DNA from: Antedon mediterranea
Lineage: Eukaryota > Echinodermata > Crinoidea > Comatulida > Antedonidae
Reading direction: 5' to 3'
Length of the DNA: 64,000 bases
Assembly: GCF_964355755.1 (NCBI RefSeq)
Contig: NC_092673.1
Coordinates: forward strand, 32,249,648-32,313,647
A program made the translations under genes and the position numbers. Within the stretch, counting starts at the first letter, position 1, and each line of letters starts with the position of its first letter. The notes under the pieces were generated by a model that searched no databases, was not told where the DNA came from, and was given only the letters and a program-made list of their open reading frames with translations. This document shows, in pieces, positions 2,504-19,831 of the stretch.

Positions 2504-2649
2504 AAAACAGCCGCATCATCATCTATCTTTGTAGAACCTCTATTAACGAGACACTCACAATCCAAGCACAAGCACGGAGGTACAAAATCTAATGTTATAC
2601 CTCTATGATCTAAGTGGTCCCTTCATAGGAATGGCCCCTCGATACTGGT

Positions 2650-3556
2650 ATTATTTGTCATCCTTCAGGGCAGGTGTATGATTCCACTGTACATAGCCCT
2701 ATATCTGCCCTGACGGCTGACAAATAAGACATTTATTATTTGTCATCCTTCAGGGCAGGTGTATGATTCCACTGTACATACCGTATACCTGCCCTGACGG
2801 CTGACAAATAAGATATTTATTATTTGTCATCCTTCAGGGCAGGTATTGTATGATTCCACTGTACATAGCCGTATACCTGCCCTGACGGATGACAAATAAT
2901 AAACATATTATTTGTCATCCTTCAGGGCAGGTATTGTATGATTCCACTGTACATAGCCGTATACCTGCCCTGATGGCTGACAAATAAGACATTTAATATT
3001 TGTCATCCTTCAGGGCAGGTATTGTACGATTCCACTGTACATAGCCGTATACCTGCCCTGACGGATGACAAATAATAAATGTCTTATTTGTCATACGTCA
3101 GGGCAGGTATATGGCTATGTACAGTGGAATCACAGTCACACAATACTTGCCCTGAAAGATGACAAATAATAAATATCTTATTTGTCAGCCGTCAGGGCAG
3201 GTATGGCTATGTACAGTGGAATCACACAATACCTGCCCTGAAAGAGCCGTCAAGGCAGGTATACGGTATGTACAGTGGAATCATACAATACCTGCCCTGA
3301 CGGCTGACAAATAATAAGTCTTATTTGTCATACGTCAGGGCAGGTATACGGCTATGTACAGGGTGGAATCATACAATACCTGCCCTGAAGGATGACAAAT
3401 ATTTATTATTTGTCATACGTCAGGGCAGGTATACGACGGCTATGTAGCCTACAGTCCAGTGGAATCATACAATCCTGCCCTGACGGATGACAAAATGAAT
3501 AATATATTTATTATTTGTCATACGTCAGGGCAGGTATACGGCTATACAGTGGATTC
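2650..3556. repeat. Hairpin repeat array with inverted loop orientation
   Basis: About eleven units of roughly 80-90 bp. Each unit is a near-perfect hairpin: one arm reads ATTTGTCATCCTTCAGGGCA and the other is its reverse complement. The asymmetric centre contains TGATTCCACTGTACATAGCC. In the first five units (to about 3076) the centre reads in this direction. From about 3082 onward it reads as the reverse complement. Units are separated by short AT-rich spacers such as GACATTTA. Confidence 0.85.
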
Positions 3557-4624
3557 CGGAATAGTAGGCATGATTAGTTTGATTTGATTTGATTTGATTT
3601 GAATTTATTTGGAAAATCATCATAAAAAAATACATACAAAGTGATAATGTAACACTCTGACCATCAGGTCAACAACCCTTTTTTCACTATTTCTCCCTAC
3701 TCCATCTATTAACATTCCTAGTGGTTTCTTCCTATCCCTAGGTACTCTTTGTTCACTCTCCTATAACCCACATCCTTAATCAATTACTGTTTCCTCATCA
3801 TCATGGAATGTTCCCTTTACTAAATAGTCCCCTCCCAGTACATGCATATTAATTAGGACCGTTCCTTAAAATATGGATGTACTGGTAAGAGGAGAGGAGA
3901 GAAGGAAAAGAGCTTGGTAGAATAAAACATTTATAATAGAGAGAAGAAAAGGTATGTAATATAGCCAGAACAGACTGTATTACATTGCATATTTAAATAA
4001 AGCTGTATCTGACCATAAACCATATTTGCTGTTGGTACATTTTGTGACTGTGTGAAATCCTGCCACTGAGACTATATGGTATAGTAACGGATACACTAAA
4101 ATACAACCGTTACAATAACATAAATTACGGACATTACAAATAATAATACATTTTAAAAGATTTTCCAGGATAGCCCAAAAAGCTTCAGCTTATATTTCCA
4201 TTGGGATCCTTTTACAATCTAAAATAAAAAATATAAACATTACAAAGTAGGCCTATAGCATTAAACACGTAAATATAACAAAAACAATAATATAAACAAC
4301 AAGTTAAATTAAAGACGATTGACTTATAAAGTTATTTTTGGTTGAACAGAAATGTGATTTAACATTTTTCTTAAAATTAAATTTGTTTTCTATTTGTTGA
4401 ATGGAATGATTCTCCTTTTTCCTACAGCATAAACATAACCCGATTATATACAGTACTATCTTTTTCAACTGCTGCAAATGTTTGGTACACTTTCATTTCA
4501 TGTGTATTATAGCCTATGGCTGTGGTATGAGAAAGCGATATATATTTAAGTAATACCAAAGAATTCTTTGGTAATCACGGTATAAAATAGCGATGTGCGA
4601 GTAATATAGGCAGGTATATAAACT
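3557..4624. other. AT-rich gene-free stretch with a (TTTGA)n tract
   Basis: A run of about five TTTGA or TTGAT units lies near 3577-3602, followed by an A-rich stretch. This looks like the 3' tail of a reverse-strand LINE or SINE, similar to the one at 36.1 kb. The rest is low-complexity AT-rich sequence; I see no gene. Confidence 0.45.
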
Positions 4625-4839
4625 ATACCAAACTGGCGAGTAAATCATGTTTTACTTTTTAAACCTCGCAACGTCTGGTTGAAAAGGCTACTCGGACCAA
4701 TAATTTCTATTAGCCTAGGGGTTATTGCGATTTGGACGTTTCTGATTGGCTGTAGCCATGGACTATATTGATTAACACTGTTCTGATTGGTTGTAGCTTT
4801 GAATACATCTTCTCGGAACTCGTCCTTAATACAATAGCA

Positions 4840-6250
4840 ATTTAGCACAGTGTTTTACTATAATTAAATAGCAATTTAGGTAAATGTCTTTTGAAATGAA
4901 ATTAAATAAATTATAACCAATTTGGTTAGAGTAAAACACAATGATAAAGAATAGGAAACATTTAATAATATGATAAATTACATTTACATAGCAATTTAGC
5001 ACTGTGTTTTACTATAACCATGGAGTAACAATTTGGTTAGAGTAAAACACAATGATAAAGAATAAGAAACATTTAATAACATGATAAATGACATTTAGCA
5101 ATTTAGCACTGTGTTTTACTATAACCAATTTGGTTAGAGTAAAGCACAATGATAAAGAATAGGAAACATTTAATAACATGATAAATGACATTCACATAGC
5201 AATTTAGCACTGTGTTTTACTATAACCAATCAGATTAGAGTAAAACACAATGATAAAGAATAGGAAACATTTAATAATATGATATATAACATTTACATAG
5301 CAATTTAGCACTGTGTTTTACTATAACCAATTTGATTAGAGTAAAACACAACGATAAAGAATAGGAAACATTTAATAACATGATAAATTACATTTACATA
5401 GCAATTTATCACTGTGTTTTACTATAACCAATTTGGTTAGAGTAAAACACAATGATAAAGAATAAGAAACATTTAATAACATGATAAATGACATTTACAT
5501 AGCAATTTAGCACTGTGTTTTACTATAACCAATTTGGTTAGAGTAAAGCACAATGATAAAGAATAGGAAACATTTAATAACATGATAAATGACATTCACA
5601 TAGCAATTTAGCACTGTGTTTTACTATAACCAATCAGATTAGAGTAAAACACAATGATAAAGAATAGGAAACATTTAATAATATGATATATAACATTTAC
5701 ATAGCAATTTAGCACTGTGTTTTACTATAACCAATTTGATTAGAGTAAAACTCAACGATAAAGAATAGGAAACATTTAATAACATGATAAATTACATTTA
5801 CATAGCAATTTATCACTGTGTTTTACTATAACCAATTTGGTTAGAGTAAAACACAATGATAAAGAATAGGAAACATTTAATAATATGATAAATTACATTT
5901 ACATAGCAATTTATCACTGTGTTTTACTATAACCAATTTGGTTAGAGTAAAACACAATGATAAAGAATAGGAATTTAATAATATGATAATAACATTTACA
6001 TAGCAATTTAGCACTGTGTTTTACTATAACCAATTTGGTTATGGTAAAGCACAATGATAAAGAATAGGAAACATTTAAAAATATGATAAATGACATTCAC
6101 ATAGCAATTTAGCACTGTGTTTTACTATACCAATTTGATTAGAGTAAAACACAATGATAAAGAATATGAAACATTTAATAATATGATAAATAAATTGCTA
6201 GCACTGTGTTTTACTATACCAATTTAGTTTTGGATAAAGAATATGAATTT
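4840..6250. repeat. Left satellite array, ~101 bp monomer, ~14 copies
   Basis: Each monomer contains AATAGGAAACATTTAATAA, ATAGCAATTTAGCACT and a 37 bp dyad that begins GTGTTTTACT, passes through AACCAA/TTGGTT and ends AGTAAAACAC. A variant with AACCAATCAGATTAGAG occurs near 5222 and again near 5626, exactly four monomers apart, so a four-monomer block was duplicated. The array decays toward 6250. Short frames read from it are repeat artefacts. Confidence 0.9.
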
Positions 6251-6605
6251 AAAGAATGGATATAATATGATATGATACAATATGATTTTCTCCCAATTAG
6301 TAAGACATTTTGGAATACTGCGTGCGTAGTGCACCTAACAAGATCATGTTCGCTATTTAAAACTCACATTTTAAAACCGTAAACGCATAAATTTGCGGAC
6401 ATACTCGTAAAACACACTTCCAGAGATTTAATAATTTTAACAGTACTACAAAATCCATAATATAAAGTAATATAGATTTGTACAAAAAGAGCAGAACAAT
6501 TAAATTAACTGTCATTACATCTACTGAACTGTCTCATTACATCTACTGAAAAATTCATCGCGATGAATTTATTTATAATACACCAATCAGATCACACGCA
6601 ATTAG

Positions 6606-7539
6606 TATGGAATGCCAGTTTAGGCGATGATAAAATCGCGTCGATGATGCAATGAAAATTGCGTCGATGTGATGAAAATTGTGTCGATGAATATAGTATT
6701 GATGTAATGATGTGATGAACATTGCGTCGATGAAAATTGCGTCGATGTAATGAAAATTGCGTTAATGTGATGAAAATTGCGTCGATGAAAATTGCGTCGA
6801 TGAAAACTGCATCGATGAAAACTGCATCGATGAAAAAAAAAATAATTTTCATCGATGCAGTTTTCATCGATGAAAATTGCGATCTCCCTGCCGGTATGAT
6901 TTGAATATGATGTCATGGATGCTGGACATCTGGATTTTATGTACTGAACTGGTGGATTAACGGAAGCAATTAGCTAGAAGATATAATGTGTCCGAAAGGA
7001 CAATAATGGATCCATTGCTAAAATGTGTTGACAATAAATCACTAAAATGTTAATCAGTGCATATATTTCAACATTGTTTTAGTGCGCGATCACTGTGCGC
7101 TTGTCTATAACGCGCGCTAGCGCAAGCGGTAAACATGTTTATCATATCAAAATATTCAGAAACCGTCAATTTTTAGCAACATAATAACATTATTAACATC
7201 ATTATTAACATCATCATTTACTTTACTAGTAGTCATTTTCATCATTGATTGAATTAAAACCATTTGGAATTTTCATAATCAATTAAATTCATCACATCAA
7301 TTTTCATCGATGCAGTTTTCATCGACGCAATTTTCATCGATGCAGTTTTCATCGACGCAATTTTCATCGACGCAATTTTCATCGATGCAATTTTCATCGA
7401 CGCAATGTAAATTGCCTCGACGCAATCTACATTGCATCGACGCAATCTACATTGCGTCGATGCAATTTTCATCGACGCAATTTCATTATCGACGCAATTT
7501 TTATCATCGCCAAAAACTTGTGTAAAACGGCGTTCCATA
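6606..7539. mobile_element. Nested foldback with 15 bp tandem repeats in both arms
   Basis: The left end reads TATGGAATGCCAGTTTAGG. The right end is the inverse of a very similar sequence, with GGCGTTCCATA at 7529-7539. The arms are built from a 15 bp unit, GCGTCGATGAAAATT, with GCATCGATGAAAACT variants. It reads forward at about 6625-6835 and inverted at about 7300-7500. The middle (6900-7290) is unique. The long frames of repeated residues seen here come only from translating the 15 bp unit. Confidence 0.7.
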
Positions 7540-7784
7540 AGTGACGAATCGCATATTCGCCGTTTATTGTTGAGGCGCGTAAACAGTGTGCGCAATGCAC
7601 GTTTTCTTCCCATGACGAGACGAATCGATATTCGACTCTTCGTGTGACGAATAATCGCCAAATTATAATTAATATAATTAATTAATGAAATAAGATACGC
7701 AGTTGATGTTTGCATCAATTGTTCTTTAGAATAAATACTTTCGAAATACAAAACAAAAAATGTGTGGTGAGTGACGATATGTTC

Positions 7785-7825
7785 AATCATGGACCTATAA
7801 ATTACTAATTTATAGGTCCATGATT
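7785..7825. repeat. Perfect 41 bp palindrome
   Basis: Two 20-base arms are exact reverse complements, separated by a single C at 7805. The arm begins AATCATGGACCTATAAAT. It lies in the core of the 8.1 kb inverted structure. Confidence 0.9.
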
Positions 7826-8129
7826 CAATATCTGTAGCTTCAATTCAAACATAATGTAACAGAAAATTCGAAGCGTAAAAAACGTTCGTTTACACAACAC
7901 TTTTTTTTATACTTTATTATTGATTATTATATTATACAGGAATACTATTTATTTCCTCATTTCTACCCAAGAATAAACAATTTTTGGATACAAAACTTTA
8001 TGTGAATTACATTACCAAAATATTAAAATGAGGATAAAAAAACATCGCGTAAAATACTCGTACTCAAAAGCTTCTGAAATTTGTAGATATATGTCATGAA
8101 AAAGAAATTTGACATTCCCAATAATTTTT

Positions 8130-10020
8130 TTTGGCAAAAATGTAATATATGAAACATACAATTTACATAGTTTATCATTGTTTTTTATTAGAACCAATAT
8201 GGTTACACAGTTAAACATAGTGATAAAGAATAGATACTTGTTAGGTTACTACCCTACCCTCTAGTTTGAAGCGACATTATAAATTCATCGAGAAAAAAAA
8301 CGTATCGTATTCAGAAACGTTTGACATTTTGTATAGATATGTTCAATAAGACAAAACAAATTATAAATTTCAAGACAAATCGATGATTTCCATTATTTGC
8401 ATTTCAAAAAATTCACACTTATGAAAGACCATACATTTTCAACATTTCCTTTTTTCTGTGTACCGAGTTTAGAAACTTTTTGAATACCAGACGTATTTTT
8501 TTGTGATGCTTTTTCATTTGAATTGTAGTATAAAATGTCATTGAAACGAGATAAAAATCATACAAGACATGTTATAATAGGTTGCTCTATATACATAACA
8601 AAATTAGTTCTTTTTTTTGGTAAGAATCGCCAATGAAGTAGAAAGTTATTTCAGATGTAGTGTGCATTTATATGTCATTAATAGTAGGCCTAAAATATAA
8701 TATTAAATATTATAAAGAATATCAAACATTTTATGTTATGAAAAATAAAATTGACATATAAGTTTATCATTGTGTTTTACTTTAACCATTTTGGTTAAAA
8801 GTTAAACACAGTGAGTGATAAAGAATAGAACTGTTTTAGTTTATTTAACCCTAACCCTAGTTTGAAGCGATCACATATTTAATATTCATCGCTAAAAATA
8901 CGTATCGTCTTGAAAAACGTTTGATATTTGGTAGATATGTTCAATATAGGTTCTTACATCTATAATGCAAAAGAAATATCCTAATAGTTTTATTTTGATT
9001 TCTGAGAATCATCAATGAAGTAAAAATGTGTTGGAAATGTATTGTCTTTCATAAGTGTAAATGTTTAGAAATGCAAATTATTAAAATCACGAATTTGTCT
9101 TGAAACTTTTATTTTTTGTTTGTTTTATAGACGTAAGAACCTATTGAACATATTTACCAAATTTCAAATGTTTCTGAATACGATACGTATTTTTTCGCGA
9201 TGAATTAAGTATGTGATCGCTTCAAACTAGGGTTAGAGTTATTATAACCTAAAACAGTGTCTATTCTTTATCATTGTGTTTAACTGTGTAACCAAATTGG
9301 TTCTGTAAAACAAGATGATAAACTATGTAACTTGTATTTATTATTATTACATTATATGCATCCTATAATGTAATATGAAAAATAAAATGTACATAGTTTA
9401 TCATTGTGTTGTACTAAACCCAATTTGGTTAAAAGTTAAACACAGTGTTAAAGAATGAACTGTTAGGTTATTTAACCCTAACCCTAGTTTGAAGCGATCA
9501 CATACTTAATTCATCGATAAAAATACGTATCGTCTTAAAAAACGTTTGAAATTTGGTACATGTTCAATATAGGTTCTTACATCTATAATGTAAAAGAAAT
9601 ATCATAATTTGTTTTATTTTGATTTCTGGGAATCATCAATGAAGTAAAAATGTGTTGGAAAATGTGTGGTATTTCATAAGTGTACATTTTTAGAAATGCA
9701 AATTATTAAAATCACGAATTTTTTGTGAAATTTATATTTTTTGTTTGTTTTATAGACGTAAGAACCTATTAAACATATCTAACAAATTTCAAAAGTTTCT
9801 AAATACGATACGTACTTTTTCGCGATGAATTTATTATGTCGCTTCAAACTAGGGTTAGGGTTATATAACCTAAAACAGTATCTATTCTTTATCACTGTGT
9901 TTAACTGTGTCACCAAATTGGTTCTGTAAAACAAGATGATAAACTATGTAACTTGTATTTATTATATTATTACATTATATGTATCCTATTCTTTTCATAA
10001 CGTTTAGATAATAAGATATG
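8130..10020. repeat. Alternating inverted ~300 bp units in foldback core
   Basis: A block with ATAAAGAATAG, CTAGTTTGAAGCGA, a TATCGT motif and TATGTTCAATA occurs in one direction near 8220-8350, 8810-8960 and 9440-9580. It occurs in the opposite direction near 9120-9260 and 9760-9900. The words ACCAATATGGTT and ACCAAATTGGTT link these units to the flanking 101 bp monomers. No coding region is visible. Confidence 0.65.
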
Positions 10021-10059
10021 TTTAATATAATATTTTGCTATGTAAATAATATCATATAA

Positions 10060-12360
10060 TAAATGTTTCATTATCATTGTGTTTTACTGTAACCAAATTG
10101 GCTATAGTAAAACACAATACTAAATTTGTATGTAAATGTATCATATTATTATATGTTTCCTATTCTTAATTTGTGTTTTACTGTATCCAGCACAGTGCTA
10201 AATATCATTTATCATAGTTAAAATGTTTTACTCTAACCAAATTGGTTATAGTAAAACACAGTGATAAATTACTATGTAAATGTCATTTATCATATTATTA
10301 AATGTTTCATATTCTTTATCATTGTGCTTTACTCTAATCAAATTGGTTATAGTAAAACACAGTGCTAAATTTATATGTGAATGTCATTTATCATGTTATT
10401 AAATGTTTCCTATTCTTTATCATTGTGTTTTACTCTAACCAAATTGGTTATAGTAAAACACAATGCTAAATTGCTATGTAATGACATTTATCATATTATT
10501 AAATGTTTCCTATTCTATATCATTGTGCTTTACCATAACCAAATTGGTTATAGTAAAACATTGTGCTAAATTGCTAGCTATGTAAATAATCATTATTATT
10601 AAATGTTTCCTATTCTTTGTCATTGTGTTTTACTCTAACCAAATTGGTTATAGTAAAACACAGTGCTAAATTGCTATGTAATGACATTTATAATATTATT
10701 AAATGTTTCCTATTCTATATCATTGTGCTTTACCATAACCAAATTGGTTATATTAAAACATGGTGCTAAATTGCTATGTAAATAATCATTATTATTAAAT
10801 GTTTCCTATTCTATATCATTGTGCTTTACCATAACCAAATTGGTTATAGTAAAACACAGTGATAAATTGCTATGTAAATGTCATTTATCATATTATTAAA
10901 TGTTTCCTATTCTTTATCATTATGTTTTACTTTAACCAAATTGGTTATAGTAAAACACAGTGCTAAATTGCTATGTAAATGTCATTTATCATATTATTAA
11001 ATGTTTCCTATTCTATATCATTGTGCTTTACCATAACCAAATTGGTTATAGTAAAACACAGTGATAAATTGCTATGTAAATGTCATTTATCATATTATTA
11101 AATGTTTCCTATTCTTTATCATTGTGTTTTACTCTAACCAAATTGGTTATAGTAAATCACAGTGCTAAATTGCTATGTAAATAATCATTATTATTAAATA
11201 TTTCCTATTCTTTATCATTGTGTTTTACTCTAACCAAATTGGTTATAGTAAAACACAGTGCTAAATTGCTATGTAAATGTCATATATCATATTATTAAAT
11301 TCCTATTCTTTATCATTCTGCTTTACTTTAACCAAATTGGTTATAGTAAAACACAGTGCTAAATTGCTATGTAAATGTCATTTATCATATTATTAAGTGT
11401 TTCCTATTCTTTATCATTGTGTTTTACTTTAACCAAATTGGTTATAGTAAAACACAGTGCTAAATTGCTATGTAAATGTCATTTATCAAATTATTAAATG
11501 TTTCCTATTCTATATCATTGTGTTTTACTCTAACCAAATTGGTTATAGTAAAACACAGTGCTAAATTGCTATGTGAATGTCATATATCATATTATTAAAT
11601 GTTTCCTATTCTTTATCATTGTGTTTTACTATAACCAAATTGGTTATAGTAAAACACAGTGCTAAATTGCTATGTAAATAATCATTATTATTAAATGTTT
11701 CATATTCTTTATCATTGTGTTTTACTCTAACCAAATTGGTTATAGTAAAACACAGTGATAAATTGCTATGTAAATGTCATTTATCATATTATTAAATGTT
11801 TCCTATTCTATATCATTGTGTTTTACTATAACCAAATTGGTTATAGTAAAACACAGTGCTAAATTGCTATGTAAATAATCATTATTATTAAATATTTCCT
11901 ATTCTTTATCATTGTGTTTTACTCTAACCAAATTGGTTATAGTAAAACACAGTGCTAAATTGCTATGTAAATGTCATATATCATATTATTAAATTCCTAT
12001 TCTTTATCATTCTGCTTTACTTTAACCAAATTGGTTATAGTAAAACACAGTGCTAAATTGCTATGTAAATGTCATTTATCATATTATTAAATATTTCCTA
12101 TTCTTTATCATTGTGTTTTACTCTAACCAAATTGGTTATAGTAAAACACAGTGCTAAATTGCTATGTAAATGTCATATATCATATTATTAAATTCCTATT
12201 CTTTATCATTCTGCTTTACTTTAACCAAATTGGTTATAGTAAAACACAGTGCTAAATTGCTATGTAAATGACATTTATCATATTATTAAATGTTTCCTAT
12301 TCTTTATCATTGTGTTTTACTCTAACCAAATTGGTTATTGTAAAACACAGTATATTTTAC
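10060..12360. repeat. Right satellite array, ~100 bp monomer, ~22 copies
   Basis: This array is the reverse complement of the 4840-6250 array. Each unit carries AAATTGCTATGTAAATGTC, AATGTTTCCTATTCTTTATC and the dyad GTGTTTTACT..AACCAAATTGGTT..AGTAAAACAC. Multi-unit blocks recur: a shortened unit with ATTATTAAATTCCTATTC appears near 11290, 11985 and 12185. Copies are more uniform here than in the left array. Confidence 0.9.
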
Positions 12361-12734
12361 CTCAACAACATCGCCGCAAAATTGTTTATACGTTTATTTT
12401 GATTGGCTAACTAAAGTACGGTCTAATGAATATTGATATCAGAAGATTCCCTAGCTTAGTGAAAAAGTTTTATTACCAAAAATATGCTGATTACGTCACT
12501 ACCGGAAGCTGTAGTCTAGCATGATGCAGACGCAATTGATTATGTACGTTTGTTAAACATATAAAAAGCTGTAAATTACCACAAAACGACAATAGGAAAG
12601 AATTCAAAGAAATGCCCTACGTGTTCAAAATCATTGTTTTAATATAGTCTGTATGTATAACTAACAATTGACCTTGTGGAAGAGCGTATAAATTTAATTT
12701 AAAGTAAAACATGATTTACTCGCCAATTTGGTAT

Positions 12735-12967
12735 TGGATATATAGCTCATATAGGATACTACATGGCCGGACCGCAAATAAAATACGATATATATATGAT
12801 GACGTAGTAGATATCTACACATGCGTAGAAGAACTCCTGGATTGGAGTAGTAGGGAGATTTCCTTCCAGAAATCTCGGATTGAATCCTTCGTTCCGATAA
12901 AATGACGATAGAAATTATAATTTGTAGTTGATTTTGAAGTAATCGATATATTGTTAAATATTATAGT
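12735..12967 (+). promoter_or_regulatory. Short 5' flank of RARS2
   Basis: Only ~230 bp separate the foldback element from the RARS2 start codon, so the promoter and 5' untranslated region must lie here or inside the repeat. No TATA box or other defined element is convincing. A 44 bp word at 12817-12860, beginning ACACATGCGTAGAAGAAC, recurs exactly at 18305-18348, downstream of the gene. A short open frame across this stretch has no recognisable product. Confidence 0.35.
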
Positions 12968-15900
12968 ATGGCGACTAAAAAATTACGAGAAATTGTAGCA
13001 AAGCAGGTAAGAACACAGTCGTTTTCAAGCAAGTTAAAGGCTAGGCCTAGGCCCATGTGCATTAAAAATACAAGATCAATACAATGAAGCGTGATAATAT
13101 TTTGACCACAGTACAAGGCATATTTTCCTCGGTTTACAACCATCTCTGCGAGGATATCCAGTGGTAGCCTAGGAGAATTGATTCTACCGGTACCTAATTT
13201 GCGATACATTTTGTATATGTAATTTGGATTAAATGGTAACATTTTATATTAATTATATTTTTATTAAATTGTTTATTTTATGTTGAAATTGTATTTGCAG
13301 GTTTCTATGGCAATAGGTTTGACAGAAGAGCAAATTCTACCACTGATTAATTTTTCTCAACTTATGTTAAATAAAAGGTAATGTTACAAAATAGCATTAA
13401 TCAGTTGAAAATTAAATATCAAATCCTTTTCATAAGGGGACACTTGATCCCCTAAATAGTAGTTCTACTGTGCATATGTAACTTTAATACTAAATAATTA
13501 ATAATTTCATTTTTGGTTTACTTAATTTTGTTGTTAGATGTGGAGGTGAATTAAGTGTGTCTGTCAAGTCCCTAAATCATATTCAGAATCCGGGTCAAGT
13601 ACTCTCAGACTCTGAACTCATAAAATATGCTGGAAAGGTTGCTGCTAAGGTAACAACTTAAATTTGAATTTGCTTTTATTTCAAAGACCAAAACAAATCA
13701 GATAAAATAATTGTAATTTATTTTTTAGATAACGCATCCCGGAAAGTACATTGAGAATATTGCTATAGACTCAACTCACATTAGTTTTAAGATAAAACCA
13801 TCCAGATTTGTTGAGGTAAGAAAAAAAGAGCTTATATTTTGCTTCTCATCTCCTAACTACTCAACTTATAAATTCAATTCAATAAAACTTTATTATCCCC
13901 AGCAAACTCCGGGGAAATTCATAAATAGACAAATTCCATGATTTACTTTTTTCTTTTTTTATTTGTTTTTAGTATGTTTTAGGAGAAATAAACTCAGCTG
14001 GCCAACAGTATGGCATTCCAAGATCAAATGAGCCAAAGAAAAAAGTTATAATTGAATACAGGTTGGTGCGTTTCTTTTATTAATTTTCTTTCAATTGAAT
14101 ACTAATTTAGTTTATTATTAAACATAATTTTTAAGTGAAATTTTTTATTCCTTTCAGTTCTCCAAATATTGCAAAACCTTTTCATGCTGGTCATCTGCGG
14201 TCAACAGTTATAGGTCAATTTTTAACAAATTTGCATAAATTGCTTGGACACCAGGTGACCAGTATCAATTACCTAGGTGACTGGGGAACCCAGTTTGGTA
14301 TTTTAGCAGCAGGATTGAAGAAACAAAACCAAACTGTCTTTTCAACAAGATCTTTATTTGACGTTTATGTAGCAGCTAACAGCGAAGCTGAAGTAAATGC
14401 GCAGTTCAAAATAAAAGCAAGAGAAATCTTTAGAAAAATGGAAGATGGCGATGAAGAAATATTAAGTTTGTGGCGTGAAATTCGTGATCAAAGTGTTTCT
14501 GATTACTCACACACATACAAGGTAAAAATGAAAACAAATGATGAATATTTTATAACTACCGTATACCTTTTTTCTATGAATTTTAAATTAAATAATTGTT
14601 TTTGTTTTTTTCTTTTAAAGCGTTTAGGAATAAAATTTGATGAATATTCTGGGGAATCTAAGTACAGACAATCAGCTCAAGATCTTACGAATCAACTCAA
14701 AGAAACAAATATACTTCAAAAAGCTATGTAAGTACAGCACAGAGTTTGGTTGGTTTGTTTGCAAAATGAATGCAAGAAATTACAAATAGTTATCTTTCTT
14801 TTAATAACAGAAATGGAACCGACATAATTGACCTTTCACCTGATGGATCCATGTCAAAGTTCGTGACCCTTGCTCGTAGTGATGGCACATCTCTGTACAT
14901 TACTCGTGACCTAGCTGCAGCCATTGAGCGATTCAAGCGTTACGAGTTTGACAACATGTATTATGTTGTAGATAAAAGCCAGGCAGATCATTTTTCTGGG
15001 TTGTTCCAGACGCTTAGTAAGATTGGCCATGATTGGTCAGATAGGTATGGTAACGTATCAGATTTTGGTCAGGGTATATAATAAAATGTAATCACAAAAG
15101 CTGAACATGTGTTCTAAGATGCTCCCCAATTGAAGTATTTAATACAGCACTGATTTAATATTTGCAATAAAATCAATTGTAAATTATATGTATAGCATGG
15201 TAGATCTCGAGTACACCAGCAGAGAAGTATCCGTCAATGACGGTCATGTGACTTCAGTAGAAGACGACTACAAGAACAGTAACTGTAACAACAATAAGAA
15301 TTTTTTTTTCTTTTGGAAGGTGTCATCATCTATCATTTGGACGCGTCCTCGGCATGAGCACTCGGAAAGGCAATGTGGTTTTTTTGGAAGATATTATAGA
15401 AGAGGCTAAGTTACATATGCTACAAAACATGAGAGCCTCTAAAAGTAAGAAATGAAACATTTTATAAATTAATTTTCAATGTTTACTCAAAACAAAAAAG
15501 TTTATAATTTGTACTGAACTTTCTTTCTGAACATGTAATCATTCTCAACAGTAGGATTAGTAAACAATTTATTTAATATTTTAGACACAAAGAAATTTGA
15601 AAGTGAAGTTGATGAGGAACACGTTGCTGAAACACTCGGCGTTTCTGCTATTATAGTTCAAGATTTTAAATTTAAATTGACGTCAGATTACAGGTTTGAA
15701 TGGGATAGAGCCTTACAAGACAATGGAAACACTGGTGTGTTTCTGCAGTATACTCACGCTAGACTAAGCAGGTATGTCACATGATCAGTAGGCATGTAGG
15801 TTTGAATGGGATAGAGCATTACAAGCACTGGTGTTTCTGCACTATACTCGCGCAAGACTAAGCAGGTATGTCACATGATGATCAATAGGTATGTCACATG

Positions 15901-17461: not shown

Positions 17462-17581
17462 AAAAACTCATTCAATGATTCAATAAAATCTATAATGTTA
17501 TCTCTTTCTATTAGATTTTCGTACTTAAGGTCCCATAATCAATGTAATATATAACATCATGGTATAAAAATAATAACTTAA

Positions 17582-18206
17582 AGACCCCTTCCCTGCAATT
17601 TTGGACGTTTTTTGCAAAATAATACATATATATCACTTTAAAAACATTAAACCATGTCATTCCTTGTCTTAAATGTACGTTTTATGGTAAATTATGATAA
17701 AAAGTGAGAAACAATGCACTACCTAAGTAGCTCGCGGCGATCGACCTCTCATGGACGGTCTTAGGCCTAGCCTAGCTAGGCTTAGTTTTGTAGGCCTAGC
17801 TGGTAAACATCGGTAACGTACGAACATCGTACGCTAGCTATATACCTAGCCTGAAGTTGTATAGTTGCTGCATTAATTGTCTTTCTATTTTTGCCAGACT
17901 CCGTTGATACAAATTGGGGAAAACCCGGTATTTTCGCTGAAAAGTTAGGAGTCTTCCATTTGTTTTGGCCTCACGATCGATCGAAAAGTGGGCGAATTAC
18001 AGGTGAAAAACAAAAATATCAATCCACGCGCAATGCATTTTGGGATTTATAGCGGGCCGCTATAATTATTAGAATCTACTTATTTTTCACATTTGTAACC
18101 GTTTAAAGACGAAAAAAGTTATCGCAATATGACCATATAGTATTATTTTTACATTAAATATAATTTGTGATCTTAAATTAGATCTAAAAAACGTGGGAAG
18201 GGGGCT
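17582..18206 (+). mobile_element. 625 bp TIR element at a TTAA site, copy 1
   Basis: Flanked on both sides by TTAA (17578-17581 and 18207-18210). Termini are inverted: AGACCCCTTCCC at the left and GGGAAGGGGGCT at the right. There is no transposase frame. TTAA target duplication is the hallmark of piggyBac-type transposition; assignment to that superfamily is inference. The empty site is preserved at 2478-2481. Confidence 0.88.
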
Positions 18207-18230
18207 TTAATTTACACATTATAGTTTTGT

Positions 18231-18889
18231 TACTAGCTAGGCGCGGCCTAGCCAGGCCGCCTATCTATATACTCTCTAGCCTAGGCCTAGCTAGCCTACG
18301 TATTACACATGCGTAGAAGAACTCCTGGATTGGAGTAGTAGGGAGATTCTGTAGAATGCTGCGAATCAACTGTTACATTTTTTTAGACCAAAACGTAACC
18401 ATGTAGAAATCGTATGCGCAGTCTGAATGTTCTATTGACATGTCTGCGTCGATGATTAATTGTCAACAAAAATGTATTGCTGAACAATTCTGTTTTAGTT
18501 TCATAACAATCGGACTACGAAAAGTTCACTTTCTTACGACTGGTAATTTTAAGTAGTTGGTAATATTAATAAAATATGCAATTTTTATATTTGAATTATC
18601 ATTATTTGCCTGCCATCTTCTGTCATTAAAAATTGCGTTAATCTATAGAATATTAAATTATGCATTTGACCATGTATGTTGTTAGCGTGTCCGGTGTCCA
18701 CACATAGAACAATCGTGTTTTTAATATATGGCTAAGCAGTGGTTTCTTCATAAATCTCCTTAATTATCGATGTAATTAAACTGTAACATTGTGGGCGGTC
18801 CGCGCTCTGTCGGCGAGAGTCAAGGAACCCTTGATCTCACGTCGATGCATATCCTTCTATTCTTTAATCCATGTGTAGACAGAGCTTAA
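18231..18889. other. Gene-free spacer with 44 bp duplicate and MITE end
   Basis: Rich in TAGGCCTA-like words around 18235-18300. The exact 44 bp copy of the RARS2 upstream word lies at 18305-18348. At 18871-18889 a GTGTAGACAGAGCTTAA fragment is the right end of a family A MITE, and it supplied the TTAA used by the next insertion. No gene seen. Confidence 0.6.
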
Positions 18890-19515
18890 AGCCCCATTCC
18901 CTACGTTTTTTAGATCTAATTTAAGATCACAAACTATATTTAATGTAAAAATAATACTATATGGTCCTATTGCGATAACTTTTTTCGTCTTTAAATGGTT
19001 AAAAATGTGAAAAATAAGTCGATTTTAATAATTATAGCGGCCCGCTATAAATCCCAAAATGCATTGCGCGCGGATTGATATTTTTGTTTTTCACCTGTAA
19101 TTCGCCCACTTTTCGATCGATCGTGAGGCCAAAACAAATGGAAGACTCCTAACTTTTCAGCGAAAATACCGGGTTTTCCCCAATTTGTATCAACGGAGTC
19201 TGGCAAAAATAGAAAGACAATTAATGCAGCAACTATACAACGTCAGGCTAGGTATATAGCTCGCGTACGATGTTCGTACGTTACCGATGTTTACCAGCTA
19301 GGCCTACAAAATTAAGCCTAGCTAGGCTAGGCCTAAGACCGTCCACGAGAGGTCGATCGCCACGAGCTACTTAGGTAGTGCATTGTTTCTCACTTTTTAT
19401 CATAATTTACCATAAAACGTACATTTAAGACAAGAAATGACATGGTTTAATGTTTTTAAAGTGATATATATGTATAATTTTCCAAAAAACGTCCAAAATT
19501 GCAGGGAAGGGGTCT
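18890..19515 (-). mobile_element. 626 bp TIR element at a TTAA site, copy 2, inverted
   Basis: Reverse-complement relative of 17582-18206 at high identity over its full length, flanked by TTAA at 18886-18889 and 19516-19519. Ends are AGCCCCATTCCC and GGAAGGGGTCT. The two copies lie ~680 bp apart in opposite orientation and could pair as a ~620 bp stem. Confidence 0.88.
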
Positions 19516-19831
19516 TTAACATCTTCCTACTACACTATCTTTGGTATTATTATGAGAGGGCGCCATCTACCGGGTATTGCTTTAAAAGTATAAATGGGAA
19601 ACAAATTTTTTAAACCCTGCTGCTGAGAAGACTTAAAAGTTCTTCTCGTTTTATTATTGAATACTAAATATATACAGTAGTTACACGTCATCATTAAATT
19701 CTGGTAATAGGTAAGAAAATGTTAGTTTCTAACTATTTATCAATGCAATATTAAACTAGGCCTAGGCATACATAGTCTAGATTAGGCTAGGCCTGCCTCC
19801 CTTAGTTAGCTAGCCTAGCGGGATATGACCG

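Follow-up and report, generated by a model that had tools for sequence, protein, structure and literature searches.

The foldback transposons FB and TU have inverted tandem-repeat arms around a variable core, as does the element described here, with short arm repeats (15 bp in TU) and target duplications of 8–9 bp. The present element differs in its ~101-bp monomer and 7-bp duplication, and shows neither the 15-bp outer repeats nor the 8-bp duplications of TU. Galileo, a foldback-like element of the P superfamily in Drosophila, resembles it in 7-bp target duplications, in long arms that contain a variable number of internal tandem repeats, in its many transposase-less copies and in a middle segment that is inverted in some copies (PMC2775673, PMC3573991, PMC3688188). 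Some Galileo arm repeats contain tested binding sites for the transposase (THAP) (PMC2775673, PMC3688188), although only three binding sites were tested (PMC3688188). The differences are that Galileo arms measure 0.3–1.2 kb and hold 2–4 repeats, whereas up to ~93 repeats occur here; that Galileo duplications follow GTAGTAC, whereas no such consensus is found here (a difference in target consensus alone); that the Galileo transposase is known, whereas none was found here; and that the end sequences appear to differ.

Tetris/DAIBAM, a foldback element of Drosophila virilis, is likewise non-coding and is built of a flanking domain, an arm of ~220-bp tandem repeats and a variable middle; its repeat has a stretch in common with the end, no autonomous partner has been found, and extra binding sites have been proposed (PMC4079207). 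Its duplications are 8–10 bp long, compared to 7 bp here, and most of its repeats lie in satellite-like arrays, whereas nearly all listed monomers of the present element lie inside copies. Tm1, a Mutator/foldback element of root-knot nematodes, also has foldback arms, asymmetric terminal motifs outside the inverted repeat and MITE-like members, but it has a Mutator-type transposase, 9-bp duplications and ~14-bp repeats (PMC3169594). Against this background, the monomer, which a preliminary description had noted as much longer than the 15-bp units of TU, is not unusually long, given arm repeats of ~210 bp in Galileo-F and ~220 bp in Tetris (PMC3573991, PMC4079207). Whether long repetitive foldback arms have any function is directly testable here, since two sister families have a recognition word swapped in both ends and repeats, and since the number of repeats ranges from a few to ~93 among ~60 nearly identical copies. 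The family also illustrates a way in which satellite-like arrays can be assembled and dispersed by a transposon.

In the window (the whole 64,000-nucleotide stretch of Antedon mediterranea DNA that was analysed), the sequence common to all copies sets the limits of a non-autonomous foldback element of 8,138 bp, on the plus strand, with the following parts:

4604–4610, no strand: left 7-bp target-site duplication ATATAGG; the same heptamer lies beyond both ends
4611–12748, plus strand: the whole element
4611–4662, plus strand: left terminal inverted repeat; the outer 17 bp, CAGGTATATAAACTATA, have diverged from the right end and the next 31 bp are nearly identical to it
4663–4833, plus strand: left unique subterminal region, conserved among copies
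4834–6230, minus strand: left arm, ~12 tandem ~101-bp monomers, oriented opposite to the right arm
6231–10066, no strand: core, with no coding frame above 196 aa
6616–6880 and 7288–7505: 15-bp GATGAAAATTGCGTC-type repeats in the core
about 8740–9360 and 9365–9985: two ~625-bp internally palindromic units in the core
10067–12351, plus strand: right arm, ~22 tandem ~101-bp monomers, each with a ~49-bp dyad TGTTTTACTnTAACCAAATTGGTTATAGTAAAACA
12352–12696, plus strand: right unique subterminal region, found in at least 40 copies at 98–100%
12697–12748, minus strand: right terminal inverted repeat, GAGCTATATATCCAATACCAAATTGGCGAGTAAATCATGTTTTACTTTAAAT as read on the minus strand
12749–12755, no strand: right 7-bp target-site duplication ATATAGG

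The preliminary description had recognized the foldback-type layout, with two inverted arrays of one ~101-bp monomer around a composite core, and this reading holds: the same ends delimit many other loci, and the arrays are part of the element. Its inverted ends are also present, yet not as an isolated 34-bp pair. They are imperfect, ~45–50 bp long and reach the 7-bp target duplications; left and right ends agree in 12 of the 17 outermost bases and in 30 of the 31 that follow. The limits first given, 4625–12734, were too narrow, as the comparison of copies adds ~14 conserved bp on either side; the termini are CAGGTATATAAAC...GGATATATAGCTC, and the ends noted earlier lie ~14–17 bp inside these. 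The bounding end sequences are CAGGTATATAAA...TATATAGCTC, and the element reads CAGGTATATAAACTATACCAAACTGGCGAGTAAATCATG...CATGATTTACTCGCCAATTTGGTATTGGATATATAGCTC (4611–12748); the first bases of its two ends differ (C vs G). The element ends 220 bp from the putative RARS2 start codon at 12968, close to the ~230 bp first reported, and a class I ArgRS catalytic domain is found in the ORF at 14135–14731 (RARS2). Two other repeats lie in the window: ~88-bp, internally palindromic tandem repeats with CAGGGCAGGTATA at 2649–3553, ~1 kb upstream of the element, and an inverted repeat at 17559–19538, downstream of the RARS2 exons, with 646-nt arms that are 96% complementary and 688 bp apart.

The genome search for other loci with the same ends, as the preliminary description had advised, returned a family of ~60 copies in one haploid assembly of 354 Mb, a count in which old copies are under-represented because ends were located by exact or near-exact patterns. 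A 23-bp end pattern gave 125 genome matches (63 forward, 62 reverse), nearly all paired head to head, and its reversed control gave none, which together exclude chance. At least 59 left ends of the family are among the matches listed; the left 143 bp (from 4628) matched at least 40 loci, with 100% identity in 25 of these, and identities of 98–100% to the right 385 bp were seen at no fewer than 40 loci. Copies mostly span 7–10 kb (median 8.8 kb, maximum 22.8 kb). Where both ends were read (53 copies), canonical ends are flanked by an exact 7-bp duplication in 47, each with its own sequence, and three more have one beside damaged ends, for 50 of 53 overall. These three are C5:248319 (GATATGT, with a 5-bp insertion in the left end near position 17), C7:30419972 (TCGTGTT intact, with the right end lacking exactly 17 bp) and C3:19065633 (AGCCAGC, where a 1.7-kb insertion interrupts the left end). 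No strong base preference or consensus is seen among the duplications.

Inverted ends with fixed-length duplications at unrelated sites place the element among the cut-and-paste DNA transposons of the TIR order, and long inverted tandem-repeat arms around a variable middle place it in the foldback structural group. The family has moved with linked ends and 7-bp duplications. It has also spread recently, since the core (7500–9300) is 97–100% identical in the 39 copies scored. No coding frame above 196 aa occurs in the seven copies read, and the frame of that length has no Pfam match; the family is therefore non-autonomous, with no protein coded in any copy read. An older relative of ~1.4 kb has a left end 88% identical and contains no more than two or three monomers, all diverged; this suggests a short ancestor in which the arrays later expanded. 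At C10:7470327–7470879, two right-type family ends face each other across 553 bp, possibly as a mini-element with two right ends.

We consider it rather probable that this is a young, non-autonomous cut-and-paste foldback transposon, moved by a P-superfamily transposase in trans, with arms that are arrays of that enzyme's recognition site. The transposase would recognize the inverted ends and would make the 7-bp duplications, and the arm monomers would carry, as a dyad, the recognition word of the ends' inner part. With the word present in ends and, as a dyad, in monomers, the arrays would serve as multiplied transposase-binding sites. Such sites might help to bring together the ends of a very long element, and the arrays lengthen and shorten, presumably via unequal exchange. 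That the transposase is P-type, that it binds the monomers and that the arrays are of any benefit are inferences.

P-type transposases are present in the genome. One resident element of 5.55 kb has an intact 794-aa TNP-like ORF, in which TNP RNaseH and GTP-binding domains are recognized, and a convergent second frame of 337 aa that matches no Pfam family. Both copies read have 7-bp duplications (CGGACAC, AGCTAGC). The ends of this element, CTGAGACAAC, are unrelated to those of the foldback family. A second P-type pair (617-aa ORF) ran past the DNA read. No partner of the family was found among the P-type genes, as none lies within 25 kb of any end of either the family or its sister, described below. 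P transposase makes a 17-nt stagger, one strand being cut 17 nt inward from the end (PMC7776569), and just two copies here have end defects at that distance of 17 bp. The 7-bp length falls within the 7–8 bp of P-superfamily target duplications. A P-superfamily (Galileo-like) transposase most likely mobilizes the family, given the 7-bp duplications, the 17-bp end defects, the resident P-type element with its own 7 bp and the likeness to Galileo. That the same non-autonomous foldback transposon instead uses a transposase of another superfamily leaving 7-bp duplications (hAT-like, Dada-like or undescribed) is a possibility to which we give clearly less weight. Duplication length alone cannot fix the superfamily, the partner gene was not found, and the ends begin with C and G, unlike perfect P-element ends; yet the only transposon of this genome for which duplication and transposase were both read is P-type with 7 bp, and the end defects fall at 17 bp.

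Neither an autonomous element bounded by these ends nor a transposase in the copies read came to light. The test for a related transposase in larger copies, advised in the preliminary description, found none, and such copies were rejected as a source of the autonomous partner: those of 14.8 and 15.1 kb are array/arm expansions, and that of 22.7 kb (within C4:31171000–31193920) has two nested palindromes in its left array. The nested palindrome is ~7.2 kb long, near-perfect and non-coding, with ends TATGGCAAGCCTCAGCTG and apparent 6-bp duplications (CAATTT and CTGTGT), and its central part has ~70% similarity to positions 8873–9215 of the window, in the core.

The preferred reading, in which arms are arrays of the recognition site, draws on a sister family with a common outer 20 bp bearing one or two changes per end. 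Its ends CAGGTATATAAAATATACCA (left, 65 exact matches) and GAGCTATATTTCCTATACCA (right, 53 exact) form 48 pairs with a median span of 7.0 kb. One sister copy adjoins a fetched copy, and 1,465 bp of its right end were read: an end with AGTTGAGAATTCTCAACT, then ~390 bp of unique sequence, then ~105-bp monomers. These are homologous to the first family's monomers (alignment score 69, against 17 for the best of 300 shuffles). The dyad words are TGTTTTACT...AGTAAAAC in the first family and TTCTCAACT...ACTTGAG in the sister; with sister sequence from two loci only, the change between families from TGTTTTACT to TTCTCAACT affects the end and the two dyad halves of the monomer alike. In each family the monomer word equals the family's own end word, and the alignments begin at the same end and monomer positions in both. 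End-to-monomer scores are 21 and 22 within families (reached by 16 of 1000 and 2 of 1000 shuffles) and below shuffle means across families; none of 1000 joint shuffles reached the observed sum of scores. In the first family alone the similarity is marginal, and it becomes significant once the sister family is added. This within-family match is the best evidence that one protein may read both ends and monomers. A third related end, GAGCTATATTATCTATACCATTCCGG, followed by another word, TAGGTTGAGTCGACCTTCAA, lies ~150 bp outside the copy at C8:17114473, on its left-end side; the end of the third family reads GAGCTATATTATCTATACC.

Otherwise similar copies, among those read, have ~3–13 monomers in the left arm and ~5–93 in the right. 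Arrays could have arisen merely through unequal exchange or replication slippage and play no part in transposition, the monomer-end similarity reflecting an origin from the end. We hold this only as a tentative reading. It fits array lengths that vary widely without visible loss to the element, a dyad slightly but non-significantly more conserved than the rest of the monomer, and the marginal similarity in the first family taken by itself. However, after the families diverged the end word still equals both dyad-half words in each, while the surrounding monomer has retained its older sequence; re-derivation from the end is possible, but it must replace both half-sites in register.

The dyad first described as 37 bp exists, with a length here of ~47–54 bp. 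The element can fold as a whole, with left and right arms aligning over ~1.35 kb at ~90%, and the small cruciform proposed for each monomer agrees with single-monomer hairpins whose stability greatly exceeds that of shuffled sequences (z about −5 to −7). Two copies (C4:20380556, with intact ends and TACACAG duplications, and C10:17320466) have the core inverted relative to the left end, as expected with arm-arm recombination. Stable hairpins, arms that can pair and these inverted cores would suit selection on the cruciform or foldback structure itself, through hairpin-driven spread or replication. We think this improbable: among several hundred first-family monomers, each counted in both orientations, no compensatory change was found at any dyad pair and one-sided changes are common at some pairs, and the precise ends and 7-bp duplications need a transposase. 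A double binding site explains the palindromy at least as well as cruciform function. Lastly, large tandem arrays do exist, but a general satellite without linked ends, which the preliminary description had named as the alternative, or a segmental duplication of that kind retains practically no probability, as flanks differ at every copy around exact 7-bp duplications, the paired ends gave zero control matches, and a 45-bp monomer word (1,901 genome matches) falls within known copies in 99 of the 100 matches listed, so that the arrays are confined to the element.

Among 235 ends of the two families, five pairs of neighbours face outward at distances of 7, 11, 17, 21 and 80 bp, where 0.004 such pairs within 100 bp are expected. 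In all five the adjoining ends are both right ends (about 0.0005 by end type), with no left-left or left-right pair:

C1:15791976/15791984: right-to-right pair
C7:4710397/4710409: right-to-right pair
C2:14556331/14556349: right-to-right pair
C7:26553429/26553451: right-to-right pair
C5:29599607/29599688: right-to-right pair

The literature on twin insertions offered no usable explanation of these pairs. More speculatively, and as a picture we think possible without expecting it, this may be a giant non-coding P-type foldback lineage in which ends and arm repeats co-evolve as one recognition system, families specialize when the word common to both is switched simultaneously in the ends and throughout dozens of repeats, and new copies are set right-end to right-end beside old ones by a particular mode of insertion. 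A gap of 7 bp would result if a new copy inserted into a duplication already present.
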